A DNA stretch of 64,000 bases. It comes from Bryum argenteum. Lineage: Eukaryota; Streptophyta; Bryopsida; Bryales; Bryaceae. A program made the position numbers and the translations under genes. Positions 7,641-44,696 of the stretch are shown here, piece after piece. The notes beneath the pieces were generated by a model. That model ran no database searches. It worked only from the letters and a program-made list of their open reading frames with translations, and had not been told where the DNA came from. Within the stretch, counting starts at the first letter, position 1. The number at the start of each line of letters is the position of its first letter. The stretch is taken from contig CM073327.1 in the NCBI GenBank assembly GCA_037043015.1, positions 7,360,727 through 7,424,726 of the forward strand, read 5' to 3'.

Positions 7641-7747
7641 GAACATGTAATTCGTTATAATGGGAATATTCAAATTATCAAATCGATGACAATTGAGCTT
7701 GAGTTGAATCAAATGTACTCGAGCTAAACAACCCCATATTCGTTATA
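7641..7747 (+). repeat. Left terminal and subterminal repeats of the giant element
   Basis: The terminal repeat covers about 21 bp (7641-7661) and matches the right end at 18 of 21 positions. ATTCGTTATA occurs at 7650-7659 and again at 7738-7747, each followed by AT-rich sequence and GGG. Between them is a partial palindrome half site ending in CTCGAGCTAAAC (about 7711-7729). These repeated motifs are candidate transposase-binding sites. Confidence 0.75.
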
Positions 7748-8025
7748 TTGGGAAATATGCAGGACTTTGGGAGTTTTAAGAGTAGTGAATCATCTTAAAT
7801 ATCTATGAATGTTGAGCATAAAGAACTAGATCATGCATCACACATGATATGAATATATGTAAAAAGAGACATAGCTTTGAACAAACTATAGAAAAAGGAT
7901 GGGAATAAAAGAATATTCCATTTATTCGCTTGTAAGTATCAATCATGATTCACAAAATATGCCATATAAGAGTGATAACTATCAAATCTATACAAAATTA
8001 CTTCTGTAGTTACTAGATGTAACCA

Positions 8026-10111
8026 CTACGGAGTTCCACCATAAGCAACAATACGAGATTGGATGAATGCTCGTTGACGCCGACGTGTCCAGCTAGAATC
8101 ATTGTCTTGCATCAATGGACTATCAAGAAGGCGTTGCAGTCTTTCGCGACGCTGGTCCTCAATGCTTGACTTAGGTAGCGAGTGACAACGGTTTTCTGAC
8201 GAAGGCTTGATTGCTCGTTGTTCCGTAGACTTCAAAGGACATGCCTTTGGACTCTCCAAAACAGGATCCTGAACAAAATGAAACAATGGCATTTCTTATA
8301 AGTGAACGAGCGAAGAGATACATACATGCAATAGTTAGCACATGAGTACAACGTCTAAGAATTGAGTAACGTATAAGAGTGTATAGCACTAGATCTACAA
8401 ATACTTATTTGTTCATGCAAATACTTAACTCAAAAGCACTAAATGCGCAGTGGAACAAACCTTTACAAAAGCTTCATTAGAAATATCCGCATCAATGTCG
8501 TATAACATACGCTTCGTAGGCGTACATGTAATTTGAAGAGGAGAACCATTCTGATTTATTGTTGGAGGCGACACAGGGAAAGCCGATTGCAACACCTTTG
8601 GAGGTGATGACTTAGTGACAGGGCTGTTAACTACTCCATCTTCTACTGCCATTGTCGAAAAATCCATGGTAGATTGAGCCGTTTCAGCAGACTGCAATAA
8701 TCGTCCTCTACTCCGAAGTGAAGGCCCGAAATCCGCAGCATTCATCAGAGAATCCACAGAAGCACGACAATCACCCTGCGTAATCTATTTCAACAATTTT
8801 TCAAACTGAATATTCAGAAACAAATGAAAAGTCCTACAAAGCTACTACGGGAGGCTCACATCGTAAGATACAAATTCAAATTAAAGTCAAAGGGTCGAAA
8901 ATTACTTGACAGTAGAATATAAAATAATTTTTCATTCTATTAATGCCTTTTGTATATCATTATACAGATCTAATGATGCACGATCATCACATATCATGGC
9001 ACGTCCAAATGGTAACGATGACCGAAACTTGCTAAGGGAACCGTCAAACTCATGGAGCTCTAACAGATACGGCAAAACCTCATCTAACAAAATAGAATCC
9101 TCGTGTGCCCTATTGTCCTTGTGAGACCAGGATGGTAGTAAAATAACATTTTCCCGCTGATTAAGCACGTGCTTAACTGGACTATCATCTATGATGAGCG
9201 TATTAGCCTCTGTATAAAAACCATCAAAACTATTGAAGAGATGAGCTGACAAGGTCTTAAGGAAGATAGACTTCTGAGTTCCCGGTTCCTTCATGAACAA
9301 TGGTCTGCTCCCACCAGATTTCAAAGGAATCATGTCACAGTCTTCTTGACCAAGAATTCGTAGTGGCCTTATAGGGTTTATAGGACCGAAGAGAAAATCA
9401 CAAATGGCTTCTGTGGTTGTTCTCATCATCGAACTCCAAACCGTGATGGTAGCAAACGATGCCACCCGAGAGAGGAAGTCCTTACAGTTGGGCCTCACCC
9501 ATACAAGCTTCTTCCCCACCTCGGTTGACAACGTGGCTGAGTGAATACGGAAGTCACAATTTCTGTATCCTTTAGCTTCCCAAAACGGGGAACAACTGCA
9601 GAGGATACCATTGAGGTCGAGAACAACATTTAACCAAGTACCGGAGGATTTGCTTGGAACCCGACCTATGTCTTCTCTAGAAATTAAATCATTGACCGAT
9701 GCTTCGTTGACCTGAAATGAAAACGGCGCACCACGACAAAATTACTGGGGAGCTTTCGTCACTGGTGCGATGAATTCAAGGTCGGAAACATAAAATACAT
9801 CGCAACGATGGCATGGGTGAGAGCAGTGATTGTGGAACAGAAAATACCTGATTATCATAATTGCTCTCCTCTAAGTCAACTTGGACACCCATTGACCCGA
9901 GTGACTGCTCAGTGCAATCTATCTCATCACGAACAGCAACAACATTCTCAGTATGTGAGACATCATGCATTTTGAGTGTGTCCTCCACCGATGGAACCCG
10001 CTCATGGTGATAACATTCAAGCGTGACATCATCCATGACTGGAACATCGATTGCTTCGTCATCCAAATTAACATCTGGCAAGCAATACAAATTCATGGAA
10101 TCAGGGAACAA
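8026..10111 (-). CDS. FCP1/NIF-type HAD phosphatase, multi-exon cargo gene
   Basis: The likely exons on the minus strand are 9848-10111, 8966-9711 (or to a stop near 8932), 8461-8784 and 8026-8273. The second exon carries the catalytic domain. VVLDLNGILC corresponds to HAD motif I (DxxG, with Asn where many relatives have the second Asp, as in plant NIF-like proteins). VWVRPNCKDFL and TVWSSM follow, then LFMKE and NTLIIDDSPVK as motifs III and IV. Such proteins remove phosphate from Ser/Thr, classically on the RNA polymerase II tail. The last two exons join in phase and give a basic, Ser/Pro-rich tail. The junction between the catalytic exon and the tail exons is not resolved: the obvious donor near 8965 does not keep phase, so this could be decay or an unseen exon. 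The gene lies 200 bp downstream of the ParB-like gene on the same strand. Start ATG is probably at 10095 (MNLYCLPD), or the exon is spliced on from upstream. Confidence 0.65.
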
Positions 10112-10165
10112 GATGGAGGAAATAGAATATGGGAGCCATCAAGAAGCAGATAGGAAAAAGGGCAA

Positions 10166-10192
10166 CAGTTTAGCTCGAGTCGAGCTAAACTG
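10166..10192. repeat. 27-bp odd palindrome (single copy)
   Basis: A perfect palindrome with 13-bp arms CAGTTTAGCTCGA around one central G. It lies between the stop of the ParB-like gene (10310) and the first phosphatase exon. Confidence 0.9.
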
Positions 10193-10309: not shown

Positions 10310-13300
10310 CTAAGTTGAAGGAGGACCTGGAGATTCTTCTTCTTCGTCACCCACAGGTCGTATCTCAGGCATAGGAGAGGAAGGCGCAGGCGCGGGAGGC
10401 TCGGTAGGTGGAGGCGGCAGGGACATGAGTGGTTGCAGAGAAGTGGGTATAGCCTGTGTAGCAGGAGTGGTTGCCATTGCCCGCACCGAAGATAATGCGT
10501 GGCCGGCCGTTAAACTCTCCATCATCTGCATCAAAGTGTCATGGCGTTCTTGTTCCCTCTTTTCGCGTTCCCGCTGCTCAAGGTTCTGCTGTTTGAGGAG
10601 CTCTTCCAACTTTTTCCGGTGTGCCATCTCCTCCTCAACCTTGCGCTGTAGTGCTGCCAATTCAGCACTCTCCTCGGCCTTGAACCTACTTGAGGGTGAG
10701 TCCCTCGACAGGGGATTACGTTTCCGCTTTGCACTCCCTCTGCCGCCTCCTCGCCCAGGAGCGGTATGCGACTCCTGCGGTGTCCGAGGGGTCGTGTCGA
10801 TTTCCATGTATTGCTCTTCGTCATCCCCTCCGGAACCAAGGCTGTAAGTGCTGCCTTCACCGTGAAGTTGCCTTCCACTTGACCCAGAGTCCTCCTGGTC
10901 GGGGACGTCCGCCTCATCGTCGAGGGCCTCGTCATCCAAAGACGCAAGGGCTTTGCGCTTGCCTTTTAAGAGCATGGCGCCAACCTCCGGGAACTCGACT
11001 TTGTCGACAAAATACCCGTTCACGGAGAAGTCAGTTGGATCAAGAGTAAGCCCTTCATTGTACGCCTGGTCGATGTCCTCTCTATCTTCGGCGTCGAATA
11101 TAGCGTAGGCGTCGAGAGACAACATCTACAAAGAAAACACTGCAGCTTAAAAAACTGATTAAAGAACTAACTAAAGCGGAAATGATTTGAAAACAAGCTT
11201 GACAGTTTAGCTCGAGTCGAGCTAAACTGCAATGACAGTTTAGCTCGACTCGAGCTAAACTGTTGGGTTTCCTATGCTACAGCGAAGCTTACCATGCTTG
11301 CGCAGACTGCTTTCCCGCCGGCGTAGACAAGAAAAATGTTTTCTTGCTCAACGCAGAAAAGCTGGATGACCTGCAAATAAAAATCCATCCTTAACTCGAT
11401 CGGGTACATGTGGTACCGTGATTTGTTGTACTTCCGCGGCTTCTCGTAAAGCGCGTGCTTTGGAGCGCGATACTCGGCCTGAGGCATACGCGCGAGGTTC
11501 ACGTTCCCCCTGAGCATGAATAGAAGTCGCACAGGCTCTGAGGCTTGCTTCGCTTTCGCGTTGTATCCAGCGAGCCGTTCGTTCGGGGATGGATAGTACA
11601 TCGACGGGATGAGCTTATAATTCCCTGGGAAGAATGCAGGATTAGTCGCAAACGCCTCAACTTGCGCGTATTCACTCTTACCCCCGCAAATAAATAACCA
11701 GCAGGGAACATCTTTCAGAGCTGGCTTGTTCTGTGACGACAAGATCGCCATGAACATTTCGAAGAATGGGTGTTCAGGCGAGGAATCAGCTGAGGTACTA
11801 CAACTACCCGGAACCAATCTGAAGTCGATAATTCCGACATTCATCTCGGGTGCAGGTTCTGGCCATTTGTTCTCAGGCCAATCTTTTAGCCTCTGTGGTG
11901 TTTTGCGCTCGAAGGAACGGAATATTAGAGTACCAACAGGGCCAGTAAACTTCTCGCGCTTCTCCAGAAACACCTCGAAGAACCTCTTCGCGTAGGGAGA
12001 GAGATCTTCACAGCTGGTATTCCTGTGTTGGGTTTGCCTCTGATCTGCGTAGTACTTATCAGGAATCCCCCATTCCAAGAGTGCGCGCTTTGAGGCCTTC
12101 GTGACGTGGAAGTCTTTCTTGAATTTCTTCCACGCTTCCACGTCGAACTCGTTGTTCTTGAAGATTCCAAGTTGAGGTCTGATCTTGTGGATCTGAAGCT
12201 GGGCGGTCGCCTTACGCTTCAACCATTCAACGTACTCCTTCAGGGAGTAGCAATCTTCAAGAAGGGTTACCGGTTGTTTGAGTGTAACCTTCGGGTACTC
12301 CAGTTTTCGCGACGGACCTGACCTATTCAACATATGTGAACAGAGTTTTCTATGGTCTGACTCGGAAAGGTTACCGAGGTTCTTAAAAAATTCCCTGGAC
12401 AAGGTTTGATCGCTGTCAGGTTTGAACCCTGGCTTGTCACACAGCTGCCTCAAGGAGTAGGGGTCGATAAGGGTCCCCTGGGCGACACTACCAATCAACT
12501 CTACCCACAGGTTCCACAGATCTTCAGGGAAGGTGATAATCTTCAGCTCATTCGTGAGGGACAAGACCTTGTGCTTCACCTCTCCTTGGGCCTTGGCAAC
12601 ATCAATCATGGCAAACCTATGTCGAATGGAGTCCACGAATTTCTGCAGTACCACAAGTAATGTAAGATGCCAGAGTAAAAGACAGCGGTAACTTTAGCTT
12701 TCGTGTGCATCTGGAATACGAGAGCTGAATATATGTTTGGTTTCTCAAGCCACGACAGTTTAGCTCGAGTCGAGCTAAACTGCAATGCCAGTTTAGCTCG
12801 GGTCGAGCTAAACTGCAATGACAGTTTAGCTCGACTCGAGCTAAACTGTCACCGGGAACAATTTGCTAAAATAGAAGGTAGATATGTGATGCAATATGAG
12901 GTAATACTTACGTCAAAATTTGCGAATTGTGACACAACTCGCTTTGTTTGCACACGCTTATCCGCCACCCCAGCTGCTGCATGTCTGTTCGCTGGGCGCC
13001 CGTAGTTCTCCCACACAGTGCGGGCGGCAAGGATGTTCGAAGCCCATGTCGGCTTAAATGGAGTGAAGTGGTTCACCCTGTTGTAGAACGCCGATATCTT
13101 GCGGAGCTTTGCTTCATCCTTTGTCCAAACTACGAAAGCTGACCATACCCGGAAGAACTTGCGAATTGTTTCTGGGACTTTGGACTCAAGCATCTGCTTC
13201 GAGGCTGCAACACTGTGTTGGCCGTTGATGATCCAGAACTCGCAATCCTGCATATCTTCCAGGCCGTTCGGCTTCACATCCAGTTTCGGCATGACGCAGA

Positions 13301-15539
13301 GCGTTTGCTTCTGCGACCTGTCGGGCATATTGATGAGATAATTCATCAAGTCCGTCTTGCCCTTTTTCTCGAAAGCCCGAATGGTCCATTCGGGAGGGGA
13401 CTCGATCATCTTCATCGTGTCGACCTCTATCTTCGTGTCAAGTTTTGGAAAGACGAAGCAGTCCTGACAGTCCGTGAAGAACTTCTGATAGATGAGGTTG
13501 ACGTTCTCGAAGTCGATCTCCTCCACGGTATTAACGTTCTTTGGAATGCATTGAATAGCATCGTTCAAAGCCGTTAAAGCATCATCTTCGGGGATGAGCA
13601 TGCTCTTCTTTTTCTTCCCCACGTCTGACTTTTTCACGGGAGCTTCTCTCTTCATTACAGGCGAGTCAGTAGTCGTTGTGGTTGTTGGGGTAGGCCTTCT
13701 AGCTCGTAACGTGCGTGTTGGGGTCCTGCTCTGTACGCCGCTTCCCGTTGCCGTCAGCCCAGAGCCCTCCAGTGGAGCTTTTCCTTTTAGGTGTATCGTC
13801 TTCGCCAGAATGTCTGCGTGTGTAAGAGCCGAGACTACAGATCGCAGTTTGATTGCGAGCTGCTTGGCCTTGAGATCTCCCCCCTGTTTCGTATGCCATA
13901 CTTTTGTAAGCATATCTTGTTTCAATGTGGTTTTTATTTCATCGAAACTCGACGGCTCTAAACTCTCCACCATCTTGCTCAAGTCAAAACGAGTCTGTTT
14001 GATATCTATCAGTATGGTGTAGTTGTATGCTTGCTCCTTGTCCTTCTCCTTGAAGGTTGTTAATGTGGCTATGATCTCCTTCTCCGATTCGTGGTCGATG
14101 TCAGTGACCTTCGAGTCAATGTCGACGTACATGGGGTCTTCTACATTTCCTTTGTAGGTCACGACGAGGGTGAGGAATGATGTCCAGGGAATCCATCTCG
14201 CAGACCAGGCTACAACTTTGGATGCGTCCTTGAATTCCCAACAGTCCAACTGCTTCGTGTCGTCGCCATCGTCCTCTTCAATATCCGATGGCCGAAGCTT
14301 GAAGAAGTGTTGGAGCGCTTCCTGAACTCTTGCTTTCTCCTGACTGTAATGTGGAAGTGTTAGCTGATTGTAATGGTCTGGGTAAACATGAAGCTTATTT
14401 TATCGTTTCTAGTTTTACTTGCAGTTTAGCTCGAGTCGAGCTAAACTGTAGCATAGCGGTTTCTTAGCTGAATAAATCGATGAGCTAAATCTGACGATTC
14501 AAGCTACCACGGTATCTTTACGTCAAATATTAGCCTAAACCTACATTATTTTTCTGCGTCGGAAGTTTTTGTTTTTCAACTATTTAGTCACATCTATCGG
14601 ATTATCCACAGTTTAGCTCGAGTCGAGCTAAACTGTTGAGACATGTGTCAACTACAGTTTAGCTCGAGTCGAGCTAAACTGTAGGATGATTCATGGTCAA
14701 ATTGCATATTACTGTTATTTAGTTTCGGTTAGCTGAAGTAAAACTATCTTTACGTTGCCAGCAGTTTAGCTCGACTCGAGCTAAACTGTCAAGGCTTGTG
14801 TTAACTACAGTTTAGCTCGAGTCGAGCTAAACTGTAGACTGCTTTTTTGTCAAGTTTCATAGTTCTGTTATTTAGTTTCGGTAAGTCCTAGCCAGTTGTC
14901 TACGTCGTGAAGATAGTTTCCGTTGCCAGCAGTTTAGCTCGAGTCAAGCTAAACTGTCAGGGCGTGTGCCGGATACAGTTTAGCTCGGGTCGAGCTAAAC
15001 TGTCAAGGCTTGTGTTAACTACGTTTAGCTCGAGTCGAGCTAAACTGTAGACTGATTCATTATTTTTGTTATTTAATTTGGGCATGCTTAAGTCCTAGAC
15101 CCTGGACTACGTCGTGAAAATTTTTTTACGTTGCCAGCAGTTTAGCTCGAGCCGAGCTAAACTGTCAAGGCATGTGCCGTCTGCAGTTTAGCTCGACTCG
15201 AGCTAAACTGTCAAGGCTTGTGTTAACTACAGTTTAGCTCGAGTCGAGCTAAACTGTAGACTGATTTATTATTTGAGTTATTTAGTTTCGGCATGCTTAA
15301 GTCCTAGACCCTGGACTACGTTGTGATGTTTTTTTACGTTGCAAGCAGTTTAGCTCGAGCCGAGCTAAAGCTGACCAGCGCGTCGTGCGGATACGATTTT
15401 AGCTCGAGTCGAGCTAAATCGTATCCGCACACGCCGCCCGACGTTTCTCGACTCGAGCTAAACTGAAGTGGGGACCCACGTAATTGTTGGTGAACTAGTA
15501 CTCTGGAAGGATTTTTATTGAGCATCACCTGTCTGCCAT
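10310..15539 (-). CDS. ParB-like / methyltransferase-like protein of the giant element (4 exons)
   Basis: Exons on the minus strand: 15529-15539, 12912-14343, 11293-12642 and 10310-11125. All junctions have GT-AG borders and keep phase, giving about 1202 residues without a stop. The first exon codes MAD and ends in phase with the second (SQEKARVQEALQHFF). The middle of exon 2 is basic and Thr/Pro-rich (a likely nuclear signal). Its end carries CEFWIINGQHSVAAS, like the GQHR-type motif of ParB/DndB-like domains. Exon 3 ends with HALYEKPRKYNKSRYHMYP, then DFYLQVIQLF and IFLVYAGGKAVCASM. This resembles the C-terminal half of N4/N6 DNA methyltransferases (EKP...H, then the FxGxG loop), but no DPPY motif is seen, so catalysis is doubtful. 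Exon 4 is acidic and then coiled-coil (ELAALQRKVEEEMAHRKKLE) with a Pro-rich tail. All three introns are filled with the 27-bp palindrome. The gene model is firm; the domain calls are by eye. Confidence 0.7.
11203..11262. repeat. Two 27-bp palindromes in intron 3
   Basis: Copies at 11203-11229 (centre G) and 11236-11262 (centre C), 33 bp apart start to start with spacer CAATGA. Both lie in the 167-bp intron 11126-11292 of the ParB-like gene. Confidence 0.95.
12756..12848. repeat. Three 27-bp palindromes in intron 2
   Basis: Copies at 12756, 12789 and 12822, spaced exactly 33 bp, with spacers CAATGC and CAATGA. The middle copy has one arm change (CTCGG). All lie in the 269-bp intron 12643-12911. 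Confidence 0.95.
14422..15464. repeat. Palindrome array in intron 1 (14 copies, 46-bp pairs in a longer tandem repeat)
   Basis: Copies begin at 14422, 14609, 14655, 14762, 14808, 14930, 14976, 15022, 15138, 15184, 15230, 15346, 15395 and 15440; the last three are imperfect. Within clusters the step is 46 bp. Clusters repeat every 150-210 bp together with conserved flanks (ACGTTGCCAG before, TTATTTAGTTTCGG after, and the spacer TCAAGGCTTGTGTTAACTA). The copy at 15395 has longer arms (15385-15430). The whole array sits inside intron 1 (14344-15528) of the ParB-like gene. Confidence 0.95.
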
Positions 15540-17502: not shown

Positions 17503-20500
17503 GCAACTTTTTTAATCCGAAATTCATTTGTGTAAATTTTTTAACATTTTAACTAAATTTTTCACTAATTTTTTGACTAATTTTTTTACATTTTAACTAA
17601 CTTTTTCACTAATTTTGTGACTAATGTTTTTACATTTTAACTAAATTTTTCAGTACTAATGTTTTGACTAATTTTTTCAGTAAGTCTTGGCTAAGTTTTC
17701 ACTAAGATATGACAATTAATACTTTGGTAGAAGTTTTTGGCCAAGTTTTGACTACGTAAACGTGAAGGTTTTCAATACAAGTTTTTGACTAAATTATGAC
17801 TAAGTATAGTACTCTAAAGTACTCTAAATATTTGATTTAGAACACGATAATTTTAGAACTTGTAAACAAAATTCTATCATGTTGGGTTTTTATCACCTAC
17901 TAATGATATGTCTGAAAAACCATTTTAGAGTCTAAATACCTCTATATGAGGCTATTCACTTTCTAATTGTTGTGTTATATTTTGATTACCAGAGTACAGC
18001 TATACTATATTTGTACAACGTACCTTCCCATACATATTAATTTCTTATATTTTTAAAGTATGTACTATCTTCAGATGAGCGATATTTCCAAGTACATGAA
18101 ATAGTCTGACTGTATAAACAAATATAACCATAAATATATAGCAAAAGTTCTTAAATACGAGAATATTCTTCTTGTACTCTAGTCACATAGAGTAAAGTAG
18201 GAAAAGATCTAAGCGTTTAGTACCCAATGAGAACAGTTGCTATTAAACAAGAAATATATATTTTTATTAAATTAGAAATAAAAATAATCACTCTCAATCA
18301 CTACATGTATAGAAAAAAAACACACACACACACACGAGAATAAAATAAGAATCTAATCTTTGGTGAATAGCTTATTTTGGTATTAGTCGCTAATAAACAA
18401 TACACTTTAAATGAATATTTATTTTTTTTGAATAAGAAAATAATACATATATTATTAAATAAATACATTATTCAATACAAACAGTATTTATTTTATGACG
18501 TTTATTTTGGATTTAGTCATTAATACATATATATTCTAAGAAATGATTAGATTCTATATAAATTTATTATTTGAAAATAGGGGTTTAAATTATTTATTAT
18601 TTCGGAATAAGTTATTTAGATACTATTTGTATCAATTAAAAGATTATTGGATACAGGGGCAATGGTAAGCTTGGGGTATCACTTTTTGGACACACTAATT
18701 AGGTTATTTTTATTGAAAGCCTCCAAAGTTTGTCTAATTTATTCATTTTAATCAAGTAAAAAGACCCTAAAATAGAAAATAAAATATCATGCACCTCACT
18801 GAAATCAAAGTATATATGCCTATAGATTTTCTCTTAGATTTTTTATTTTTTTTGGATCCATTCATAGATGAGGGAAAAAGTGCTGAATTTGGGGATTTGC
18901 AGGCATTATAGTGCACAATGAATTAATTTTTTTATTATTAAATAAATTATTTTGTATTCTATACAAGAAGATGTAGGTCATATTCAAAAATCATATTAAA
19001 ATAAAAATGGTTGATATTCCATTTGCTTGGTTCTATGGATTTTAGGTTATTGGGACATGACTTACTTTTTCAACTAAAGAATCAAATAAAATTACTTCAA
19101 AATATTTTTTTTAATTTTTAATTTTTTTTCTTGATACATTATAAGTATAGACAACTAAAACCACATCTAATGAAGTCTTATTGTATTACAGTTTAAAAAT
19201 GGATATGTTTGACACACCAGCATAGAGTGCAATTGTTCATGGGACAACCTTTTTGGGTACCCCAACCAGACCATCACCCACAGATAATTTGAAAGTATTA
19301 GAAATTTTATAGACTATTTATTAAAAATACTAAGGTAAATATAAGTATAAATATTAATATTAATATAGATATAAAAATGACTTGATGAACACAACATACA
19401 ATATCTTATAATTCTAGTATTTAGTAGATAACTATGAATAAACAAATCCTTTAATACACATATTATTTGCTAACAAAAAGCTATTGATTAGAATATTTTA
19501 TATATATATATATGTCATAGTATATTACTTTAAATGAGTTACCTAATAGATTATCTAACAATAGATTATATAATACAGTCACCTGTTATTTGAAAATGTG
19601 TTGATATTGAATAGAGTTTTCATTCAAGAGATACTTTATATATAAATTAGTATGAAATTTTCATATTTTCATATGATTATAAATGAAGTAGTTAAAAGGA
19701 AAGTTGATATTAAAATATTAAGTAGAATAATATTTAAAAAATTAAAGTTTAAGACTATGTGATTCATAAATATTGGATGAAGTGTGAAAGACTGCACAAG
19801 TGCAATTTCAAATTTAAACATGTTAGTTAAAACACTTGAGTGTTGAGAAACTTAACGAACATGCTAGTACTGCTTAAATGAAATTCTAACATTAGTACCT
19901 ATATATAATGGCTATAAAGTTAAATTTACATGCTACAAGATATAAAATGCCAAATCTTAATACATTGATTATCGTTACATTCTGAAAATAAGAAAATTTG
20001 TAGTAGTTTATAATGTTGTTCATGATTAATCAATCCCTGAAATTATTCATTATTCTTCAAACTCATATCAAAATTTTGTTGTTCTTCGATAAACGGGCAA
20101 ATATGTTTATAATTGAGTTAGTAAATTATAAAGAAACTTTATTGTGAATACATAAATACAGCGACGAAGTTCATGATTTTCAAAGAAAAAATCAAGAGTT
20201 TGAATAATATCAATACTTATATTTGAGAATCTCGATCATGTAAATACTGTAAAATATGTTGTGAAAGTAAGAATTCGTAAAGAGTTTTACTACCATTGTC
20301 TTTGATGAATGCACAATGAAAGTACAATAGAGAAGACAACGATTTACAGTGTCAATATTTATTCCGCTAGATATGTTTTCTACTTCCTCTTTACAATGAT
20401 ATGTATGCCAGTTTATATTAATGGTATTAGAAGCAGCTCAACTAAAATGAAATACTTGGTTTTTGATAACCAAAATTCCTTCTCTTCAGCAAACACCTTG

Positions 20501-21445: not shown

Positions 21446-21449
21446 CGTG

Positions 21450-22140: not shown

Positions 22141-22339
22141 AGAAGAGACACAAGGCCTCATTTCACTTCCGAATTGTGAATGCGACCCAAAGTCTCTCGA
22201 GCCGCATAACTTTATGTTATGTGTCCGTTGCTTGGTACATATTGAGTTCGGAAGTGCGAGTTCGTTTACGAACTCTTGACATTTTTTTCTACATATCTAT
22301 TACCACGTTTGATCATTTTGAGGTGTCCTACCTATCAAA

Positions 22340-32084: not shown

Positions 32085-32310
32085 GAGGGGGAGGGAGGTC
32101 GCGCGGCCGACCGACGGATAGCCGACCGGTCGGTCGGCGGCAGCCGACCGCAGCCGCCGCCGGCGGCCGATCTCGGGCGGTCCCGGTCGCCGCTCGCCCG
32201 TCCGCGTCGCCGGGCCGGTCGGTAGGCCGGTCATGCGGTCGATCCCCATCGGTCGGCCGGGCACGAGCGGCCCGTTTGACCGATCGTACATCGCCATCGC
32301 CCGCTTCGGT
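32085..32310. repeat. Orphan GC-rich island in the nested element
   Basis: The same CGGCCGACCG/CGGTCGGTCGG composition as the four promoter islands, but no long coding frame starts on either side. It may be a promoter that lost its gene. Confidence 0.5.
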
Positions 32311-32516
32311 TTTTCTTTTTTTTTTTTTTTCTTAGTTTCCATTGTGTTCTCGAATCTTTCAAAATTACATAGGATCCTTTTTAAATTTTAATCCCTCTCG
32401 ATTTCATTATTAGATTCTCAAAGATTATTACACAATGAAAAAAGGAATCCTATGTTGATTTGTGAAATGCTATATATTCTTTATTCACGGATATTGGTTT
32501 AGTGGTTTAGGGTTCC

Positions 32517-32552
32517 GGGTTTAGGGTTTAGGGTTTAGGGTTTAGGGTTTAG
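32517..32552. repeat. Interstitial TTTAGGG repeat
   Basis: Four to five nearly perfect TTTAGGG units. This is the plant telomere motif, here inside a transposon. A second run, reading CCCTAAA, is at about 40125-40156. Confidence 0.85.
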
Positions 32553-34261
32553 GTTTATGGTTTACTTAGAGATTTCATGATTGCGGTAGCTTTGTTATAT
32601 GAAATTTTCACTTCAATCTAGAAGTGATGAAATTTCGTAAATTCTCTTGTGTACTAACATATTATGATCTCGTAGTGTATGAGGTTATATGACTCAACTT
32701 TGGGGCACATGACCTACAACTATAACTCTATTTCAATATTGCATGGTTGAGAATGTAAGTTGAGGATCCTCATTTTAATATAGGACCCTTATTTTGGAAA
32801 TGCGACATTTGGTAAAAAATGGACATTAGGTTTGGGGAGTCTATAATCTTAGATGCTATGTTGAATGTTGAAAATACTATCAATATATTCCTTGCAACAA
32901 ACTCGTGATTTATTCCATGTCAATAATAATAACAATGCGATGGAGAAAAGTGGCATTCTAATTGATTAAAAATATAAATCAATACTACACCATGCATACA
33001 CGAATCCCTTATTTTCATTCCACACACAATTGAGTTTCCAAAGATTTCCAACACCAATCTTTATAAGTTGATGCGATATGTTAAAAACTTTTAGAGTTGG
33101 ATATTTTCAAAAATTTATTTGTCTCCCTTTTTACTTCTCTTTATTTGTGATTGCGAAATAGAAAACAATAGAGTCCTCTTTCTATTACCTTTGTAAGAGG
33201 TAAATAAATAATTATTCAAATAAATACAATAAAAAAATGGTACTAATAAATATGGAAAAAGAATATGTGCAAATTAAGTACAATGATATGTACTACATTA
33301 TAAATATACTCCTACCTTAGTTCAAGGGTGTCAAACAAAAATAGCCAATAATAGAATGAGTTGTTTAGGCATAATGTTTTTTCAGTTAAGCCTATTCTTA
33401 TGTCTAAATGTGGTCAATGTAAGGCCTAACACGGTAATACCAAAGTTATGAAACTAAATGGTCACACATGCTCTATAAGTCTATTACAATATTACATGTT
33501 TGAGAATGTAAATTGTGCATCTTCATTTCAATATAGGACCCTTCATTTGATAATGCGTCATTTGGTTAAAAATAGGCACTACGTTTGGGGAGTATATAAT
33601 CTTAGATCCAATTGGCAAAAAAAAAAACTTATTTTGTTCCTTTAAGTCATTTTGAAGTATTCTAATTATAATGTGAATAAGAATGAAATTAGAAAATACG
33701 AGTAATTATTATATACGGTATAAATAAAACCACGTCTATTTACATAAAACCTACTGTTGACATGGAAGACACAAATTAGGATACAGTAGATTCTATCATC
33801 CCTGGTTCTAAATTTGGGACGCATGTATGTATAATGAAATTTATATGTTATATGTTTTATACGTACACATATTTTCATGAACGCCAATAGCCTTCTATTA
33901 TAGTTCATGAGAAAATATATTTTTAAGCTAATACATGTTCATTGTAAGTTTGTAACCCTTAACCTCAAATGCCCAAGGGGTGTAGACTCTAGAGCCTAGA
34001 AACACACGTTTTGCAAAGTGCAAGAGATGAAAATAAAGGTTAGCAATCTAGATCCCAACCGTACAACATTGTAGAAGACTTGGTTTAGGTCATGTGGAGG
34101 AAATTTGGACTCCAAGACTAGAACTATTAAAAAAAAAAATTTCTTTGTGGGCCATGGGAAAGCATGCCTCATGTTTGAAAAAAATCAAAAAACAAGACTT
34201 GGTTCTCCATCGACGTTCATTTTCTTCTCCCTATGGAAACCCAACAGTTGTTTAATAAAAA

Positions 34262-34295
<34 letters not shown>

Positions 34296-34304
34296 AAACA
34301 ACAA

Positions 34305-34609
34305 AGCCCCGCCGACCGGACGGGGACGGGCGGCCGACCGCATCGGACGGCGGCCGACCGCTCGCGCGACCGTCGGACGGCGGCCGTCGGATCCGTCGGC
34401 CGCGACGGATCGGATCGGTCGGCGCGATGGCCCGGCCGATCCGGCGGCCGCGACGGATCTGTCGACCGACGGGCGGCTGCGACGGTCGCCAATGCGGCCA
34501 TCGGATTGGCCGACCGATCCCGCCCGACCGATGGCGGAATCGACCGCGGCCGACGGAGATCGGACGGCCGGGAACGGGCGAATGCCGACCGCCGCGATTG
34601 GTATAAATA
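34305..34609 (+). promoter_or_regulatory. GC-rich island and TATA box of the repeat-rich gene
   Basis: A CGGCCGACCG-rich island ends in TATAAATA at 34602-34609, 137 bp before the ATG at 34746. Confidence 0.65.
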
Positions 34610-34745
34610 GCCGACCGGGCTCATTTCTTCTCACTCACAGTGCGCCCGTCGCTGTGGTTTTCCATGTCGATTGCGCTCCTCGAGTCCCCTCTCTTGATAA
34701 TCGACGCCATTTTTTTGCGCTTTTTTTTTTGTTGTGGTGAACAAT

Positions 34746-36104
34746 ATGCCGAGGGAACGACGTACTAGTGCACCCAAGGGCAAGGCCCCGGAGATGGACT
34801 GGGAAGCAACTGACGATCCAAATTGTGTTGCCAAAGATGGATGGGAAGATGAACCGGCGAGAATTTGGAATTGCACCATGTGCAAGCGATATGTGAAGAT
34901 GAAACACCTCATGAAGTTATGGCCAAGAAATCAAGCGATTATATCGGGGCCACGACGCGAAGGACTAGCCAGCAGTTGCACAAGTCAACATTTCACACTT
35001 CGTTATCATGAAGTGACCATTGCCGTTGGAGACGGAATACTAGGCCGAAATCATGTTATATTCCAACATGGCTATGGTTTGGGCAGAAATCGTTCTACAT
35101 AAGAACGTGAATTGGAGCACCGTAACAGGTTTGAATGTTGCCGAATTGGATCGGAGCCATGATTTCATACCAACTAGTTGGCTTGGACCCAGTGATTGTA
35201 TGCCCCTTTGGTCAAATCGGACATATACGGAGATGTCGGAAGTTCAAGATGAAGAAAGTACACCTCCAAGGAGATATGGAGGTCAGACACGAATTTCTCA
35301 AGATACACCTCCGAGGGGATACGAGGGTCAAACACAACATCAACAAGACACACCTCCGAGGGGATACGAATGTCAATCTGAACATCAACAACATACACCT
35401 CCGAGGGGATATGGGGGTCACACAGCAGATAATTATAATCGCAGCAATAACAGGGGTATGGTACCAATCTCTTTTGGCATAGGAAGTGGTGGGTATTATC
35501 CCGGTAGCAATATATACGGTCCAGGAACCACTACTCCTGAGACATATAGGCCAGAGCATCCAAGGGATACGTACCAATCCGCAGGCCAACACGATACAAG
35601 TCCGAATCTTTGGAGGAAGATATATGCCAACATATCCTCGGGATACATACGAGTCGAGGCCGATACGGTGGAATGAGTGCTCCGGAGAGCTATACGCCAA
35701 CATATCCTCGGGAATTTAACGATGTTCCCGGCCAATATGGTAGAGGACCAAAGTCCAGTACCATATCCCAACACATCCAAGGGACACATATGAGTCTCGA
35801 GGCCGGTATGGGAGAGGACCTAACATTCGAGAAAGGTACCCCACAACGTATCCTCTTGGATCATACGATGCTCACAACCAATACGGTAGAAGACCCGAGG
35901 TTCCGGATAGCTTTAGACCAACGTATTCAAGAGATACGCATGATCATCACGGCGAGTACGGTAGAGCTATTACCAATCCCGAGTACCGTACTCCAAGTCA
36001 AGCAAGAGATGAATACGAGCCCGTTGGAATTACCGAACAAGCATCGTGAAGAGCATATCACTCGAGATCCATATCCGGTATGGCCAACATGCATATGGGA
36101 GTAA
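34746..36104 (+). pseudogene. Repeat-rich protein gene, paralogue of the RING gene's N-terminus, frame-shifted
   Basis: The start MPRERRTSAPKGKAPE leads into RIWNCTMCKRYVKMKHLMKL. After a frame change comes NMAMVWAEIVLHKNVNWST. Both motifs match the RING gene at 28786 (ICKKYVKM...KLWP; LAMVYAEL...INWST). A four-fold tandem repeat of about 17 residues follows (core TPPRGYEGQ; DNA 35258-35420). Further Tyr/Pro/Gly-rich units (PETYxPxxPRxTY) run to 36104 across two more frame changes. There is no RING domain. The composition suggests a disordered protein; the function is unknown. It faces the kinase-like gene. Confidence 0.6.
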
Positions 36105-37279
36105 CAACACTCCCCGCCACCATTCCGAACTCGTGAAGAAGAAGATGCGAGTTTGAAAGACAACTACGAGAGGCAACAATTCAAAGTCAAGCGGAGTACA
36201 TCCATAAGCTTGAAAATGATGGTATTTACGACGAGCAGCGCTTGTATGATGCTTATTCGCGAGGGCGGTACTCAGACCAAGCAGGGCCAAGTGGAACACA
36301 ATATGATAAGTACTAGGATGCAAAGTAGTTATACATTTACATATAGGCATGTTGTAATGTCTTTGTACGTACATGTAGTATTTGGATGAGAACTCTATTC
36401 TCCATATGGTAGAGGTCATTTTTTAAGACCTTCTTAACCATGTTTTGTTGGTAAACGGACATCATATGAATGATATACGGAATGTAGAACCATAACCTAT
36501 ATTACACATTTATTTGAGTAAATATGTTATGATTCCATTTATTAACCAGTTTGTTTAAAACTTTATTTGGGATTTGCTTCGGAGGCAGTGTCTCCACGGT
36601 GCAAAGGGGGAGTTGGCGATTGTTACCAACAAAATTTTGGACATATTTTTTCCCTATATGTAATCAAATGTAGTAAATTCATGCAAAATTTGGGAGGCTC
36701 ATTCCTCTTGATTGACATTCTTACAAGTTATTTTCTAAAAGCAGGTCCGAACAATACTATAGTAAAACATGCACGTCATTACGTATATTTCGTATTATAA
36801 AGAACTTAGAGTGGGGTATGTGAGTGTAGGAGTTTGTGATTTTTGAGGTAACTTAGTTCTAACAGTTTTCCATAATCTAGAATTTTGACAAATTAAAATA
36901 TGTAATTCAAATTTACTAATACATTTTGAGCTTGTGTTGGTAAGTTACGAGGTCGCATCAGAAATTGGTAAATATTATGACTTAAATAATATTGGAATTT
37001 CAGTAGTGATTCGCTTATAAACATATGAGAAGAAAAATAGAAGATAAATCGCTAAATTTGAATTACCCAACCAACACTTAAAAATTGAATCAATAGGTTT
37101 TCCGGCTTTACCCTAAAGGCCTCATCCAAATGGTGCAAAGGGGCAAAATATTATAATAAACATAAGTATACTTGGTGGGCCAAAATTTGAAAGGCATGCA
37201 ATGCATTTGAAACAAAGAGTATTGTTGCAATCGAAAATAGAACAAACATACTAATTCATAAACTATAATAAAACCGATA
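36105..37279. other. Gap between convergent genes
   Basis: About 1.2 kb between the repeat-rich gene and the kinase-like gene. It is AT-rich, has no long frame and shows no recognised motif. Confidence 0.55.
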
Positions 37280-38789
37280 TGCGTAAAACAAATTCTACGT
37301 TCTCCTATTCGTAATTCGTCCGAAAATGCTCACGAGGCGTAGGCCAATGAAACATATCGCTAAACCGTGAGATGATATGGGACAACCCTCCAGCGCCGTC
37401 ACGACTCTCGTTGCATACTCTATCCATGTAAAGATGGAAAGCTTGTGCAAGGTCTTCATTGGAGAATACCGAAGTATTTCGGTTTCCACGTTGCAAGCTC
37501 GTCTGCCGTAGACATGGTCATCCCATTAATTCTTTGTGCTATACGGGCCGTGGCAAACTCCTCCGAAGCAATCGAGTATTTTGGAATAACCTGTAAATCC
37601 TCACCCGCTTTGTACAAGAACGCCACTCGTGGATCTACCCAATAACGTTTTCGCAGGGTCTCCACCATCTCCTCACGTTTTGTAAATGTATAAAGGGATT
37701 GCATTGGTTCCTGAACCGTTGTGGAGAACCCCCAATCGCATACTCCGATATACACTCGTGATTCATCGGCGGGGAAGTGGAGAAGGATATTATCTGGAGA
37801 TATATCATTATGGAGGTGGTGGCTCTTGTGGACCTCGTTCATGATATGCAACAACGCCCAAGCAAGCTCTGTCCGTTTTTTTTTACGAATCGAATCAGTT
37901 GATGCGCCCGAATAACTTCGTCGTCAGGGTAATTCCCAAAGTTCAAATGTACAAAGACATCGTCACCATAATCCATATCGCGGTTCAGCATCTCTCGAAT
38001 AGTCCCGCCATTCCACCAAAACGCATAGCCTTGATTCTTCACTGGATGAATGGCCACAAAGCGGATCACACCCGGGTGTCCAATCCTTATCGCCATAGAC
38101 CTCATTCATATGCTCCAATTTTGCCAACTCCGGTCGTGTCAAGTGGTGAATGGAAGTTTTTGCAAAGAAATTCCCAAAATGGTTCAATGCCTGCAACACC
38201 TTCGAGCGAACTTTGACAATAGTACCATACCGTCCCTTCAACCTCGTGTCGTCAACTCGTATGATTTGAGTCATATCCGGAATGGTAACCAAATGAGTCA
38301 ATCGCATGGTTTGAGTTTGTCGTCCCTCTAGCGATTGCCACCATGTTCCGAGCCTCGACGGTGTGAATTCTTTGAAAATGCCCTCATTTGGGCGGAAAAA
38401 ACAATCACCCCTATTCACCACGTCAACGAAATCCTCATCACCCTCCCGAAATATCCTCCCATATTTGGCTATTACAACCTTGGGATTCCAGTGCATCCTT
38501 CACCCTATTCTCCAAAAACCACATGAACCCTCGTTTCTCTGTCTCTGCTACCCACTTCGGATGCTGAAGCACTTCTATCATGAGATCTCTCATTTCAATC
38601 TTGAACTTCTGGATGCCCTCCTCCTGATATCTCACATATTTGCTTTCCAATGCTCAAGATCATTGGCCTCATAGAATTTGACGGTAAATTCTATCAAGAA
38701 TACCTTACAAGCGTCGCCGGGACCTCATGAGGCTCAAACTTCTCAAAGAAGTTCGCAACACCCTTCTTCTTCTTCTTCTTCTTCGGCAT
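37280..38789 (-). pseudogene. Protein-kinase-like gene of the nested element, frame-shifted
   Basis: The minus-strand start MPKKKKKKGVANFFEKF is at 38789. Pieces in different frames give a kinase fold in order. RLKGRYGTIVKVRS fits a glycine-rich loop and FFAKTS fits the beta-3 lysine. HHLHNDISPDNILLHF fits the catalytic loop (HxD...N with Asp kept). VCDWGFS fits the metal-binding DxG (DWG instead of DFG). The HND/DWG variant resembles the unusual kinases found in some mobile elements more than standard plant kinases, but I cannot assign a family. Several frame changes make this copy unlikely to be functional. Confidence 0.65.
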
Positions 38790-38994
38790 CTTGATCCCAA
38801 AAAGGAAATATGTAAAGTGTGAAGTTTTTAAAAAAATTTCAAAAAAAGAGCAAAAACTCCCCGTATAACAAGTGACTTCCTTCCTCCAAAAGACAAGGAG
38901 CCAGGTGGGCGAGAATCACAAAGAATTCCCGACCAGAGAAACTCCGCATCCTCTCTTCGTGAGAATGGAGGAAAGAAGTGAGAAAAAGGAGGCC

Positions 38995-39445
38995 GGTCGG
39001 CCTTTTATAGCGGCCGACGGCCCGCCCTCGATCGGACGGCCGATCGGTCGCTGGCCGACCGACGGACGGCCCCCCGGATGGCCGACGCGCGGCGACCGGG
39101 CCGGACCGGCCCGACCGCTGGCGACCGCCCTCAGGCCGACCGACCGCCCGCCAGCCGACCGACCGCCCGCCAGAGCCGACCGACCGCTGGCCGACCGGCC
39201 GCCCGGTTTTGCCGACCGATCCGTCCGACGGACGGCGGCCGACCACCGCCGACCGACGTCGGTCGGCCGCGCCGATCCGGCGGCCGTCGGGCATGCGGAC
39301 GGCGCCCCAATCCAACGGCCCGCAACGTTCCATCTTGATCCGACGGCCGGATTTGATGCGGTCGGCGGCCGTCCGATCGACGGACGCGGCGACGGGTCGG
39401 TCGGCCGGCATCGGGGATCAAGAATCGACGGCCGAGATCTTTGCC
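38995..39445 (-). promoter_or_regulatory. GC-rich island and TATA box of the kinase-like gene
   Basis: The island of CGGCCGACCG-type repeats abuts TATAAAA on the minus strand (39003-39009), about 215 bp before the ATG at 38789. It mirrors the arrangement at the left end of the nested element. Confidence 0.65.
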
Positions 39446-39591
39446 AGTGGATGATCCAACGGCCCCAGTTACCAGCACCGGGTAACTCCCATTTACCCCG
39501 GACCATGGTCCGGACTATGGTCCCGGTCGACATAGTCCGGACTACGTCCGCGACTAGGTTTACCCCAATGTCGACCGATTTGACAACCCCG

Positions 39592-40817: not shown

Positions 40818-41439
40818 CAGTTTAGCTCGACTCGAGCTAAACTGCTAGCCAGGACACTCCTGCATTTTAGCTCGAGTCGAGCTAAACTGCTAGCCAGTAC
40901 ACTCCTGCAGTTTAGCTCGAGTCGAGCTAAACTGCAGTACGTCTTCGGTCGAACAGTTTAGCTCGAGTCGAGCTAAATTGCACCACGTCTTCGGTGGGAC
41001 AGTTTAGCTCGAGTCGAGCTAAACTGTTCGGTTGAATACATACTGCAGTTTAGCTCGACTCGAGCTAAACTGTTCGTCCGAAGACTTGCTGCAGTTTAGC
41101 TCGACTCGAGCTAAACTGCAGGAGTGTGCTGGATAGCAGTTTAGCTCAACTCGAGCTAAACTGCAGTATGTATTCAATCGAACAGTTTAGCTCGTCTCGA
41201 GGTAAACTGCAGTATGTGTACCACCAATCAGTTTATATCGCGTGGGGCGAATTCGAAGCGTGGTAGTGAACATATTAAACTTCTCGAGTCTAGCATCATT
41301 GCAAGGCGGTAGAGGATACACAGTTTAGCTTGACTCGAGCTAAACTGTCCGATAGAGAACAAACTGCTGTTTACCTCAAGTTCACCGAAAGTGTAGAATA
41401 TATTCTCTGAGACAGTTTAGCTCGAGTCGAGCTAAACTG
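40818..41439. repeat. Palindrome array before the transposase (11 copies, 45-46 bp step)
   Basis: Copies start at 40818, 40863, 40908, 40954, 41000, 41046, 41092, 41137 and 41183 (steps 45-46 bp), with two more at 41321 and 41413 and degenerate ones near 41228 and 41362. The spacers are of three types that recur in both orientations. An acceptor TTTGGCAG just before the ATG at 41525 and a possible donor GTACGT near 40462 would place the array in a 5' leader intron. Confidence 0.92.
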
Positions 41440-41524
41440 CATGTGATCGCTTTTCATAGTTTCATGATGCTGTGTCACTGTTTTCATTCATATCTTCTTT
41501 TGAGTTTGTGAAAATCTTTGGCAG

Positions 41525-44162
41525 GATGGATTTCTCCTCAGACGATGACGCTTTTGCCGATGCACCTCTGAATCCTGGTTTACTTGCTGCTCAAGTTGTT
41601 CCTCCACGGCTCTGGACAGGGAGGACTGCTGCATTGCTCGATTCCGAGGGACTCAGAATTGCTGAGGGTTTACTTCGAAACCTACGATCTGGCGCTGTAC
41701 CTGATTGTAATGGCTTACTTGGTGACTCTCGAGTTGTGGTACAAGTTTCAACTTTGTTTGTTGAGGTCGAGGATCCTGACGACTGGATATTCTCTTTCAA
41801 GTCATGGCCCATCCAACAAGTCCTCCTAGATGGTGTTACTCTTTTTGACCATAGTCAGCAAGATGTTTACAACAGATGGGTCCGGGAACGTAGTCGGCGG
41901 CAGGGGTCATCTCGAACTCGATCGTATGATAATTCTTCAAGGAATGAGTCTACTCCAGTCTCGCGCAAAGCACAGTTTCTGATGACAGCGGAGTCAATCA
42001 ATGCGGTCGCATGTAATACCTGCTGTAAACACAACTGTGTTCAACTATACCCAAGGGAGAAGATTAAGGTTCTCAGGTGTCGAATGTACGACAAGACAAC
42101 TGTGCAGTTCAAGAATCACGTCAAACTTGATGTCCATAGGCAGTTTCACAGAAGTGCTGAAAGGCGAAATGTAGTCACTTTAGAGGGTATTGATGTTTGT
42201 GCAATTGCGTGGATGAAGATAATGGGCGTGAGCAACGGTACATTTTATCGCAACGCCCAGAGTGCAGCTGATGGGCATGAGGCCCAGTTACACGGGAACA
42301 CGGGCTTGCGAAAGCCTAGGAGGCATACGATTGTTGCTTCTGCCGTCTTAGGGGCAATACTTGATAGACATGCCGATCACATGCCTCACAAGTCCCGGAG
42401 CCTTCCATCAGGGGAGAAGGTCGTTGCCAAGGTACTTCCTTCAAGTTTTAAGTGGAAGGACCAAATTCCTCTTCTTGATCATCACCTTGAAGAGTGTGGG
42501 CTCCCGCCGGTGTCAACTTCAAACCTTAGTAAGATTCGCCGCCTCAGCTATCCAGAATACTATGCCAAAAGATCGGGGGACAATTTCGCGCGTTGTTCCA
42601 AGTGTGATGAGTTACAATGACTGATGAAGCTCACTCTTCCTGGGACACAATCATCGCTTATATGGTCGAGGAAGTTGAATGTGCACTTAGATTCCGCATA
42701 TGCGCATAGAGACTTGTACTACCTCAACCGCTTTAGGTCGAAGGAGTTGCCTCAAGATGTTTTGACCATTATGCATGACAAGATGGACCACTCAAAAACA
42801 GCATCACCTGCCTTGTCTCATAAGGTGAAGAACTTAGACGGACTTATGAAGTTACCTCTTGCAGTTACGGGAATTCTTGCTCATGGTCATGTAGACCAGC
42901 GATACGCTCATTACGGACTAGATGTTTACTCACATGATGCCAATTATACAGTTGGCTCGTTTGCAAAACTTCTGCGGGATCTCGAAGCTGCACCTAAATC
43001 CTCTTCTAGACAACTCTTTACAGAGCCTCCATCGCATCCACTGTATACTGCTCTTTTACGAGGTTCAGAGGTGTGTATGGATTCATTAGGCCCAATTCCT
43101 GACATCCTAGTTCCAGGAAAGCCTCTGCCTCCGATTTTGAATGTCTAAATGGATAATGCTGTGAGTGATAACAAGAATAGATTCGTCTTCAGTTTCTGGT
43201 CTCTTTTGGTAGCAAAACGAGTATTCCGAGAGATATATGTAAATTTCATGCTCTTCGGTCACACGCATGATGACATAGATGCGTTATTTGGGCGTTGGAG
43301 CATGGCATTGCGAAAGGAGGATCATGCTGGTATTAAGTTGTGGAAGGAGGATTCTCAAGGAAGATCATTATGGCCACGTGGTGAACCGGATGCAATGCGT
43401 CCAAACGAGATGCGTCATTTGCCTGAGGTGGTGAAAGGGATTTCAGGCTTTGTCGATCATTGGGAACGATTATCACGTGAGTCAATTGAATCACGGAGAT
43501 TGTACGAGCCTCTCTCATATTACTGGAGCGCCGTTAAAGATGCTCTTTGTATACCCATGGACGTACTTGCATCGTCGCAAAATGGGATTCCGTCAAGTTT
43601 GGAGGAACCATTACCGTTACAACATGGATTTTGGCCATCAATTCGACTTGCTCATGCTATGGAAGATGAGTTTACTTTAGAAGGGAATGTACGCGAAGAG
43701 TACGATGACGATGATCATTTTGTTGGCCACAGACGTGATCGTCCTGCTCCGTCATTTCGAGTTGGACGTGACCTTTATAAGGGTTATTTTGTTGCACTAC
43801 GTCCATGCGGCACTGATGGTCGGCCTTTTTGGCTCGGACGAGCAATGTCTGATCCAAATTCAAACCCAGACTTACCCAATACGGTCGACATCCAGTTCTT
43901 CCGTCCAATGTCACGCTCCAAAGAAATTCTGAAGTATTACACAGATTGGGATACAAATAGAAAGCTTCGTTGGACTGTTGAGAAAGGTGTAGATGTATGT
44001 TCGCAACCAACAGATGCTATTTTCACTGCTTGGAAATCAAGAATTACGCATTCTGACGAGGATAGCAGTGAAGGTTTAGACGCTATTATTACAATACCCA
44101 AGAAGCAGGTCGAAATCATCAAGGCTTCTTTACGGGAGCTTGCTTCATCTTCTCAAGAGTAG
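41525..44162 (+). pseudogene. DDE-like (DUF7869-type) transposase of the giant element
   Basis: One reading frame runs from MDFSSDDDAF at 41525 to the stop at 44162, interrupted only by TGA at 42618-42620 and TAA at 43146-43148. The N-terminal part has a Cys/His cluster (CNTCCKHNC...KVLRC) and VCAIAWMKIMGVSNGTFY. The middle has FARCSKCDEL. The core has MDNAVSDNKNRF and VNFMLFGHTHDDIDALFGRW, the acidic signature of DUF7869-type proteins thought to be transposases with an RNase H fold. Both stops can come from single C-to-T changes (CGA and CAA), typical of methylated, silenced DNA. The acceptor CTTTGGCAG directly before the ATG suggests a 5' leader intron. The family name is from memory of motifs; the transposase role is inferred from motifs and position. 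Confidence 0.75.
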
Positions 44163-44589
44163 TCTTCTAGTATATAGTATTTATTATGGAAGTACTTGTG
44201 ATAGTCCTTAAACTTGGTATTGACATATATTACTTTGATATTTAGTTTATAGAGTATTATATATTTGTACTATTTACTATCGATATTCAATATATTAATT
44301 TTGTATAAGAAGATTGTTTATGTTGACTCCATCATTATTATCAATTGAAAGAAAATTATTTTTTGTTAGTATGTTAATCTTGACATGTATCGTATCATAT
44401 GTATGTATGGTTGGAAACCCTTTTTAAGATAAACATTGTTTTTAAGATTCAAGAGGTCTCATATCATCTCCAAATATAATGGAAATTAGTAAATTCCGAG
44501 TACATATGCATACGGTGAAACCCCTCTAATTGTTGATTTTTGCTTCATCCGTTGTCTTGTTTTAATTTGGGAGATAAAAATGTTCCAAA
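44163..44589. other. 3' region of the transposase gene
   Basis: AT-rich sequence between the transposase stop and the right subterminal repeats. It presumably includes the 3' untranslated region. No other feature is seen. Confidence 0.6.
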
Positions 44590-44696
44590 TATAACGAATA
44601 TGGGGTTAAACGCTGTGGGTACATTTAGCTTGACTCGAGCTAAACGCCCATTTCTCAAAATCAGTGAATGTTACTATTATAATGAATTACGTGTTG
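44590..44696 (-). repeat. Right terminal and subterminal repeats of the giant element
   Basis: The inverted terminal repeat is 44676-44696. An inverted ATTCGTTATA lies at 44590-44599. A nearly complete palindrome copy (TTTAGCTTGACTCGAGCTAA) lies at 44624-44645. The layout mirrors the left end. Confidence 0.75.

Follow-up and report, generated by a model that had tools for sequence, protein, structure and literature searches.

The 64,000-nucleotide window analysed here, a whole stretch of the moss Bryum argenteum (contig CM073327.1; C7:7360727-7424726), raises the question of what kind of transposon carries a phosphatase-like and a ParB-like gene besides its transposase, and of what recognizes the palindromes arrayed between these genes. 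We consider it probable that the element belongs to a family of multi-gene transposons of 18-20 kb, in which a protein encoded by the element itself reads the palindromes as its predicted binding sites. The genome searched comprised 258.8 Mb in 25 contigs. Coordinates of all features are collected in Table 1.

A giant transposon inserted into a small one

The original prediction was of a single composite transposon flanked by TA, with its ends at 7641 and 44696. The ends at these positions are indeed inverted and have common motifs of the ATTCGTTATA type. The tandem spacer is broken at 7640/44697 and continuous in its sister copy near position 2000, as had been noticed (1720-1999 aligns with 7350-7634 at 81.5%, and 2004-2594 with 44697-45327 at 74%). 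Thus, the coordinates were exact, but they had been assigned to the wrong element: they delimit a miniature inverted-repeat transposable element (MITE) that was split open, not the giant. When the left end was searched for in the genome (40 of 927 candidates scored), the matches formed two classes at different loci, covering query positions ~30-120 or 126/130-201, with the window itself as the exception. The outer class corresponds to the MITE and the inner class to the giant. Six complete MITE copies were found elsewhere, five of 161 bp and one of 151 bp, with terminal inverted repeats (TIRs) that read AACA[C/T]GTAATTCG. Their flanking 4 bp are identical in four copies, and three of the four bases agree in the other two. 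The outer ends therefore do occur in pairs at other places, ~161 bp apart as MITEs and not 10-40 kb apart as expected, and the giant of the window inserted into such a MITE. The TA seen on both sides is a piece of the 4-bp target-site duplication (TSD) of the MITE, GTAG/GTAA; a TA duplication of the Tc1/mariner type was found neither at the flanks of the giant nor at those of the MITE. As the sister spacer is an empty site of the MITE only, it gives no date for the giant, although it had been taken to do so.

We compared the window with subfamily-1 copies on C3 (10.3 Mb), C4 (19.3 Mb) and C8 (15.3 Mb). Homology to these three copies sets in at 7726-7730 and runs out at 44607-44615, and the giant is flanked by AAAC on both sides (7726-7729 and 44608-44611). 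We tried 22 copies, and all 21 for which both ends were found, window included, have an identical 4-bp TSD, of 18 different kinds, and end in AACC/GGTT. The ends read AACCCCATATTCGTTATATT[G/T]GGAA with at most two mismatches across 18 scored bases, and those of subfamily 2 read AACCTCGTATTCG. The identical flanks at paired ends, together with the limits of homology, place the element at 7730-44607 with AAAC as its TSD. At 7641/44696 there are indeed ends in inverted orientation and an empty site in the sister copy, but these positions are ruled out as ends of the giant by the separate loci of the outer and inner matches, the homology limits of other copies, the TSDs and the 161-bp MITEs found intact elsewhere. 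A single composite transposon is thus next to impossible.

In the window, the element measures 36.9 kb, or ~18.1 kb once the two later insertions that we found are subtracted. That there were later insertions in its middle had been recognized; their total is ~18.8 kb rather than 24 kb. Four other copies read whole have their true, inner ends 18.4 (C3), 19.9 (C2), 20.3 (C8) and 22.6 kb (C4, which has a stretch of its own) apart, and the core of the element is ~18-20 kb. It is therefore a giant multi-gene DNA transposon, longer than 10 kb, with 25-bp TIRs, a TSD and accessory genes common to its copies. Sola1 transposons also have 4-bp TSDs, and the duplications in the 21 copies agree with the Sola (Sola1) superfamily.

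Two arms of genes that travel together

The arms of the element are divergent: the left one holds the phosphatase-like and ParB-like genes, the right one the gene for a DUF7869 protein that we take to be the transposase, and a non-coding centre lies between them. This gene content had been predicted, and our analyses support it. The transposase matches DUF7869 of Pfam at 4e-43 (C3 copy) and 2e-41 (C2 copy), DUF7869 being the only name that Pfam gives. Its longest open copies have ~970 to 1036 codons, and the window copy has lost 79 residues that are present in others. The phosphatase homologue matches PF03031 above the curated cut-off (6e-15 in the window, 1e-14 in C3, 6e-14 in C2), and NCBIfam TIGR02251 at 6e-8, under its cut-off. 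The coiled-coil exon and the exons that we called G3 and G4 are joined here as one predicted spliced gene because of splice sites read by eye. All five frames are open in the C3, C8 and C2 copies; the window copy is not among the intact ones. In four aligned sequences from three families or subfamilies, the motif (N/D)GQHSVxAS of G4 is invariant, and together with ISAFYN and PTW it forms the block of G4 that varies least among the families aligned.

With 143 of 888 candidates scored, there are at least 144 phosphatase matches; for the transposase there are at least 197, with 119 of 1804 scored. Both genes therefore have more than 100 dispersed matches in the genome (at least 144 for the phosphatase, at least 119 for the main transposase), far above chance. 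A phosphatase match lies within 45 kb and in the expected orientation beside 92 of the 119 main transposase matches, at a median spacing of 17.1 kb; random positions gave a mean of 5.0 and a maximum of 11 in 500 runs. Of the 85 G4 matches, 69 lie at most 15 kb from a phosphatase match, which shares their strand in 68 cases, and 61 lie at most 45 kb from a transposase match, which is on the other strand in 59 cases. In all, 78 of the 85 are near one or the other and 52 near both.

We determined ratios of non-synonymous to synonymous divergence (dN/dS) by the Nei-Gojobori method, leaving out the coiled-coil exon of C4, which has a short frame, and the broken transposase of the window. Within subfamily 1, they are 0.09-0.15 for the transposase, 0.11-0.42 for the phosphatase, 0.10-0.19 for G3, 0.09-0.25 for G4 and 0.09-0.22 for the coiled-coil exon. 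Between subfamilies, they are 0.10-0.11 for the transposase, 0.22-0.26 for the phosphatase and 0.34-0.40 for the coiled-coil exon, and G3 and G4 give no ratio because dS is saturated. The ratios are well below 1, as estimates without a formal test against that value. Decay after insertion should raise such ratios rather than lower them. The transposases of the two subfamilies are 76-78% identical and their G3 and G4 sequences ~50-59%, with gene order kept.

The accessory genes are thus parts of the element and not passengers, since they travel with it through three degrees of divergence and have low dN/dS. PF03031 is a cellular family, which would suit ordinary host gene fragments acquired by Pack-type capture. 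Nevertheless, the genes and gene order that two subfamilies share with one third-family copy, the dN/dS values and the many copies with open frames make such capture very improbable.

Arrays of a 25-bp palindrome

The palindrome of the first family, CAGTTTAGCTCGA-G/C-TCGAGCTAAACTG, is 25 bp long and occurs in 1256 exact 27-mers genome-wide; the reversed control gave 0. The five copies mapped harbour 22 to 49 palindromes each (up to four mismatches). One lies between the phosphatase and ParB-like genes, one to six are found per intron, and two arrays flank the non-coding centre. Among the first 100 palindromes listed, all on C1, 96 are at most 20 kb from a listed element gene, a zone that makes up 17% of that stretch; the remaining four form one cluster. 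Within the palindrome each base carries ~2 bits of information, except for the free central one, which carries less, and the value drops over the first one or two bases beyond the edge. As the sites were picked by similarity, the value inside is inflated, but the edge is not.

With the outermost pair excluded, 79 changes in the arms are one-sided, 7 are compensatory and 3 are of other kinds. The predominance of one-sided changes indicates that it is the sequence that counts rather than a hairpin, and a role as an RNA hairpin was rejected. Constant helical spacing was likewise rejected, as spacings vary between copies. The MITE, whose TIRs are related, keeps one palindrome in all six copies printed, with a mismatch in one of them, a hint that the site is required in cis.

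A third family with another palindrome

In a genome scan for PF03031 (150 of 566 candidates scored), other phosphatase families were found, and for two of them we predicted, before looking, a DUF7869 transposase ~16 kb downstream. At C4:25.25 Mb the transposase is present (38% identity, 3e-153), with an interrupted frame. This third-family copy also has G3 (27%, 1e-44) and G4 (30%, 3e-24) in the same order and with the same two introns. Its palindrome, GTTATCCCCGG-S-CCGGGGATAAC, has 23 bp and occurs 21 times upstream of the transposase, once in the intron between G3 and the coiled-coil exon and twice in that between G4 and G3. The 21-bp core is found at 661 places in the genome, with 0 for the reversed control. 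No first-family palindrome was found in the 11.5 kb read of the third-family copy, and no third-family palindrome in five first-family copies. That the positions are the same while the sequence differs, as read in this one copy, speaks more strongly than anything else for a reader that is part of the element and evolves together with it.

A 277-codon NIF phosphatase family adjoins the third giant family. Several others are also multicopy and have the look of mobile genes; their frames have 221/222, 291 and 296 codons. The loci L076 and L077 (C3:4.17 and C9:12.41 Mb) hold an apparently single-gene DUF7869 element of 986 codons; beside its gene, a different inverted repeat forms an array with a 61-bp period.

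Which protein reads the palindromes?

In the mechanism that we propose, the DUF7869 protein would cut and paste the element, as the TIRs, TSDs and MITEs suggest. The palindromes would each bind a dimer of a protein that the element encodes. ParB-type proteins bind palindromes and the block with GQHS is the least variable part of G4; hence, the ParB-like product is our first candidate for the reader and the transposase the second. Binding might mark the control regions and introns of the element, shield them from host silencing or coordinate their expression, and make its DNA competent to move. The palindromes are most likely the sites of an element-encoded protein of self-recognition that works as VANC does in Arabidopsis. 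The different palindrome that a related family has at corresponding positions suggests that the element marks and recognizes its own DNA. A narrower proposal, which we consider somewhat less likely than not, is that in a eukaryotic transposon lineage a ParB-methyltransferase with lost signature residues took on parS-like self-recognition. Each family would have its own ParB-like reader and a palindrome to match, spread through its promoters and introns, by which it would mark its own copies, including MITEs with one remaining site, and tell itself from sister families of that genome.

The subterminal repeats of CACTA elements are transposase-binding or enhancer sites, and the palindromes could be such sites too, the accessory genes doing something unrelated. 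The arrays upstream of the transposase, the palindrome beside the TIRs of the MITE and the different inverted-repeat array of the apparently single-gene DUF7869 element all agree with this, as does the transposase being the most conserved protein between subfamilies that share the palindrome. However, each of the two introns of the ParB-like gene contains sites as well, others separate the left-arm genes, and in the five copies mapped the one nearest an end is ~2.4 kb in, so that we regard this explanation as rather unlikely. Recruitment of a host transcription factor, by which the element would hijack host regulation, could account for the same site in two subfamilies whose G3 and G4 have diverged so far. 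It is a poor match to the concentration of sites near element genes and to the zero of the reversed control. In addition, a fixed host factor fails to explain how the third family swapped its palindrome wholesale in the same positions, and we find this possibility improbable.

Several observations weigh against an element-encoded reader of ParB type or against parts of the element as described. All three genes diverge between families, so none is singled out as the reader. The usual ParB-type motif is GQHR, and the motif of G4 has S in place of R. No convincing match to a ParB/Srx or DGQHR domain, or to a methyltransferase, was found in Pfam, NCBIfam, PHROGs, PADLOC or the PDB; the ParB/methyltransferase label of the original prediction draws on motifs and on a published algal parallel. 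The PADLOC matches (E 0.007 and 0.012) are weak, to other things and not common to the relatives scanned. We did not believe the weak matches in NCBIfam (0.06-0.13), PHROGs (0.15) and Pfam (DUF4422, 0.07) either. Sequence searches of the PDB gave one chance match (E 0.9), and the ParB-like block matched four and one records among phage and plasmid proteins, respectively, all at E 2 or worse. The AlphaFold models of the transposase and of the first ParB-like exon were worthless, with predicted local distance difference test (pLDDT) scores of 27 and 33, owing to too few relatives.

At the inferred position of the methyltransferase catalytic motif (D/N/S)PP(Y/F), we read DFRL or DLRD. The usual active site of NIF/FCP phosphatases is DxDx(T/V), in place of which DLNGI stands in the C2 copy and, among the 20 loci L009-L028, at 15; the remaining five loci gave no pattern match or another frame. 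If these motif readings hold, selection would be maintaining three proteins of enzymatic origin that have lost the usual catalytic residues, and binding or scaffolding would suit them better than catalysis. Spacing of the palindromes is uneven: the most frequent distance is 45-46 bp in L081 and four family-1 copies and 55/59 bp in C2, and 43 and 61 bp were seen in an apparent other copy of family 3. Among the 119 transposase matches, 22 have no phosphatase match within 45 kb and 5 have one in another orientation. The other of the two predictions of a transposase failed, as C3:12.69 Mb shows a stretch like a long-terminal-repeat retrotransposon instead, and the third family is represented by one copy, read in parts. 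Finally, among the matches listed, other phosphatase and other DUF7869 families are neighbours in 4 of 103 cases, against a random mean of 3.9.

Features of the window and distribution of copies

Table 1. Coordinates in the window of the split MITE and of the giant transposon with its genes, palindromes and later insertions.
Feature	Position	Strand	Remarks
MITE TSD, left copy GTAG	7638..7641	.	right copy GTAA 44696-44699; sister empty site CTAA
MITE, left half	7642..7729	+	last 4 bases are the giant TSD AAAC
Giant transposon	7730..44607	.	36.9 kb; ~18.1 kb minus two later insertions
Left TIR, AACCCCATATTCGTTATATTGGGAA	7730..7754	+
Phosphatase homologue (NIF/FCP-like), main exon	8932..9741	-	Pfam PF03031 6e-15; active-site motif DLNGI
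Single palindrome, phosphatase/ParB-like intergenic	10166..10192	.
ParB-like gene, exon 3	10310..11125	-	coiled-coil, acidic C-terminus
ParB-like gene, intron	11126..11292	-	2 palindromes; splice sites by eye
ParB-like gene, exon 2 (G3)	11293..12642	-	putatively methyltransferase-like by motif order; DFRL at expected DPPY position
ParB-like gene, intron	12643..12911	-	3 palindromes; donor GTAAGT, acceptor CTGCAG, by eye
ParB-like gene, first long exon (G4)	12912..14399	-	motif INGQHSVAAS
Left palindrome array	14422..15421	.	often 45-46 bp apart
621-bp later insertion	18660..19280	-	ACAG both sides; missing from C4 copy
18.1-kb later insertion	21446..39591	.	within ATTAT microsatellite; approximate borders
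Right palindrome array, upstream of transposase	40818..41439	.
DUF7869 transposase, broken	41460..44162	+	in-frame stops 42618-42620, 43146-43148; 79-residue in-frame deletion
Right TIR	44583..44607	-	one mismatch to left TIR
MITE, right half	44608..44695	+	first 4 bases are the giant TSD AAAC

The C4 and C8 copies run uninterrupted through the site of the 18.1-kb insertion, whose left end is a dispersed repeat with 39 others at 75-81% (40 matches scored, window included). This insertion resembles a second large element. A hAT remnant (23970-24704) and a RING-H2 protein (26109-27485) lie in it, as do G+C-rich tandem arrays. The 621-bp repeat has an inverted partner that is 97.9% identical (18660-19280 and 45327-45947), and represents a further small transposon family.

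Contig C1 (44.09 Mb) makes up 17% of the genome, yet among the matches listed it has 109 of the 144 for the phosphatase and 89 of the 119 for the transposase. It accounts for 7 of the 20 best-scoring phosphatase copies, against 102 of the 124 others (Fisher p 3e-5). We infer that young copies are everywhere and that older ones persist on C1, for which reason C1 is possibly a sex chromosome or another chromosome of low recombination. Two giant copies on C1 (L014 and L024, at 1.32 and 4.29 Mb) have an identical left flank over 30 bases, so that one of them may be due to the duplication of a piece of chromosome and not to transposition. Of the two most divergent phosphatase copies whose ends we looked for, L078 has none that we could see, and L079 has a decayed, subfamily-2-like end, recognized by eye and missed by the exact pattern.

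Relation to known elements and significance

The closest published parallel that we found is Sola1-1_Ec32 of the brown alga Ectocarpus, described as a 21.5-kb element with a transposase and, on the opposite strand, a gene for a 1104-residue ParB-like/DNA-methyltransferase protein (PMC12477816). Both elements are ~20 kb long, and in the moss element the putative counterpart of this gene also lies opposite the transposase. The moss element differs by its NIF-type phosphatase gene, as the word 'phosphatase' occurs 0 times in the main text of that paper, and by its altered signatures GQHS, DFRL and DLNGI, a comparison made by description and not by sequence. It also has family-specific palindrome arrays in introns and promoters; the text of PMC12477816 was not searched for palindromes.

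For VANDAL21/Hiun, binding and loss of methylation by VANC21 have been shown, with a non-palindromic motif of 9 bp (PMC5735166). As in that system, the moss elements have arrays of a short family-specific motif in non-coding parts, both before the transposase gene and within the introns of an accessory gene, and motif and element change together between families. In contrast, the moss motifs are palindromes of 25 and 23 bp. Sola1 transposons have been recorded in the moss Physcomitrella, in a table entry that states neither giant size nor cargo (PMC9033089). Sola2 elements share the 4-bp TSD and may carry an accessory gene, which is Fanzor1 and thus another one than here; their TSDs are AT-rich, whereas ours are mixed (PMC3627910). 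Our literature search found no paper on DUF7869 and, among the matches listed, no giant moss transposon of this kind.

The findings would extend giant ParB-methyltransferase transposons, known in algae, to a land plant, and would add a phosphatase-like gene as their lasting partner. They bear on the ways in which large transposons that carry accessory genes evade silencing and recognize their own copies. In two related families of one genome, a sharply defined site of 23-25 bp differs while genes and intron positions are kept, and the reader protein should therefore be findable by a simple swap in binding.

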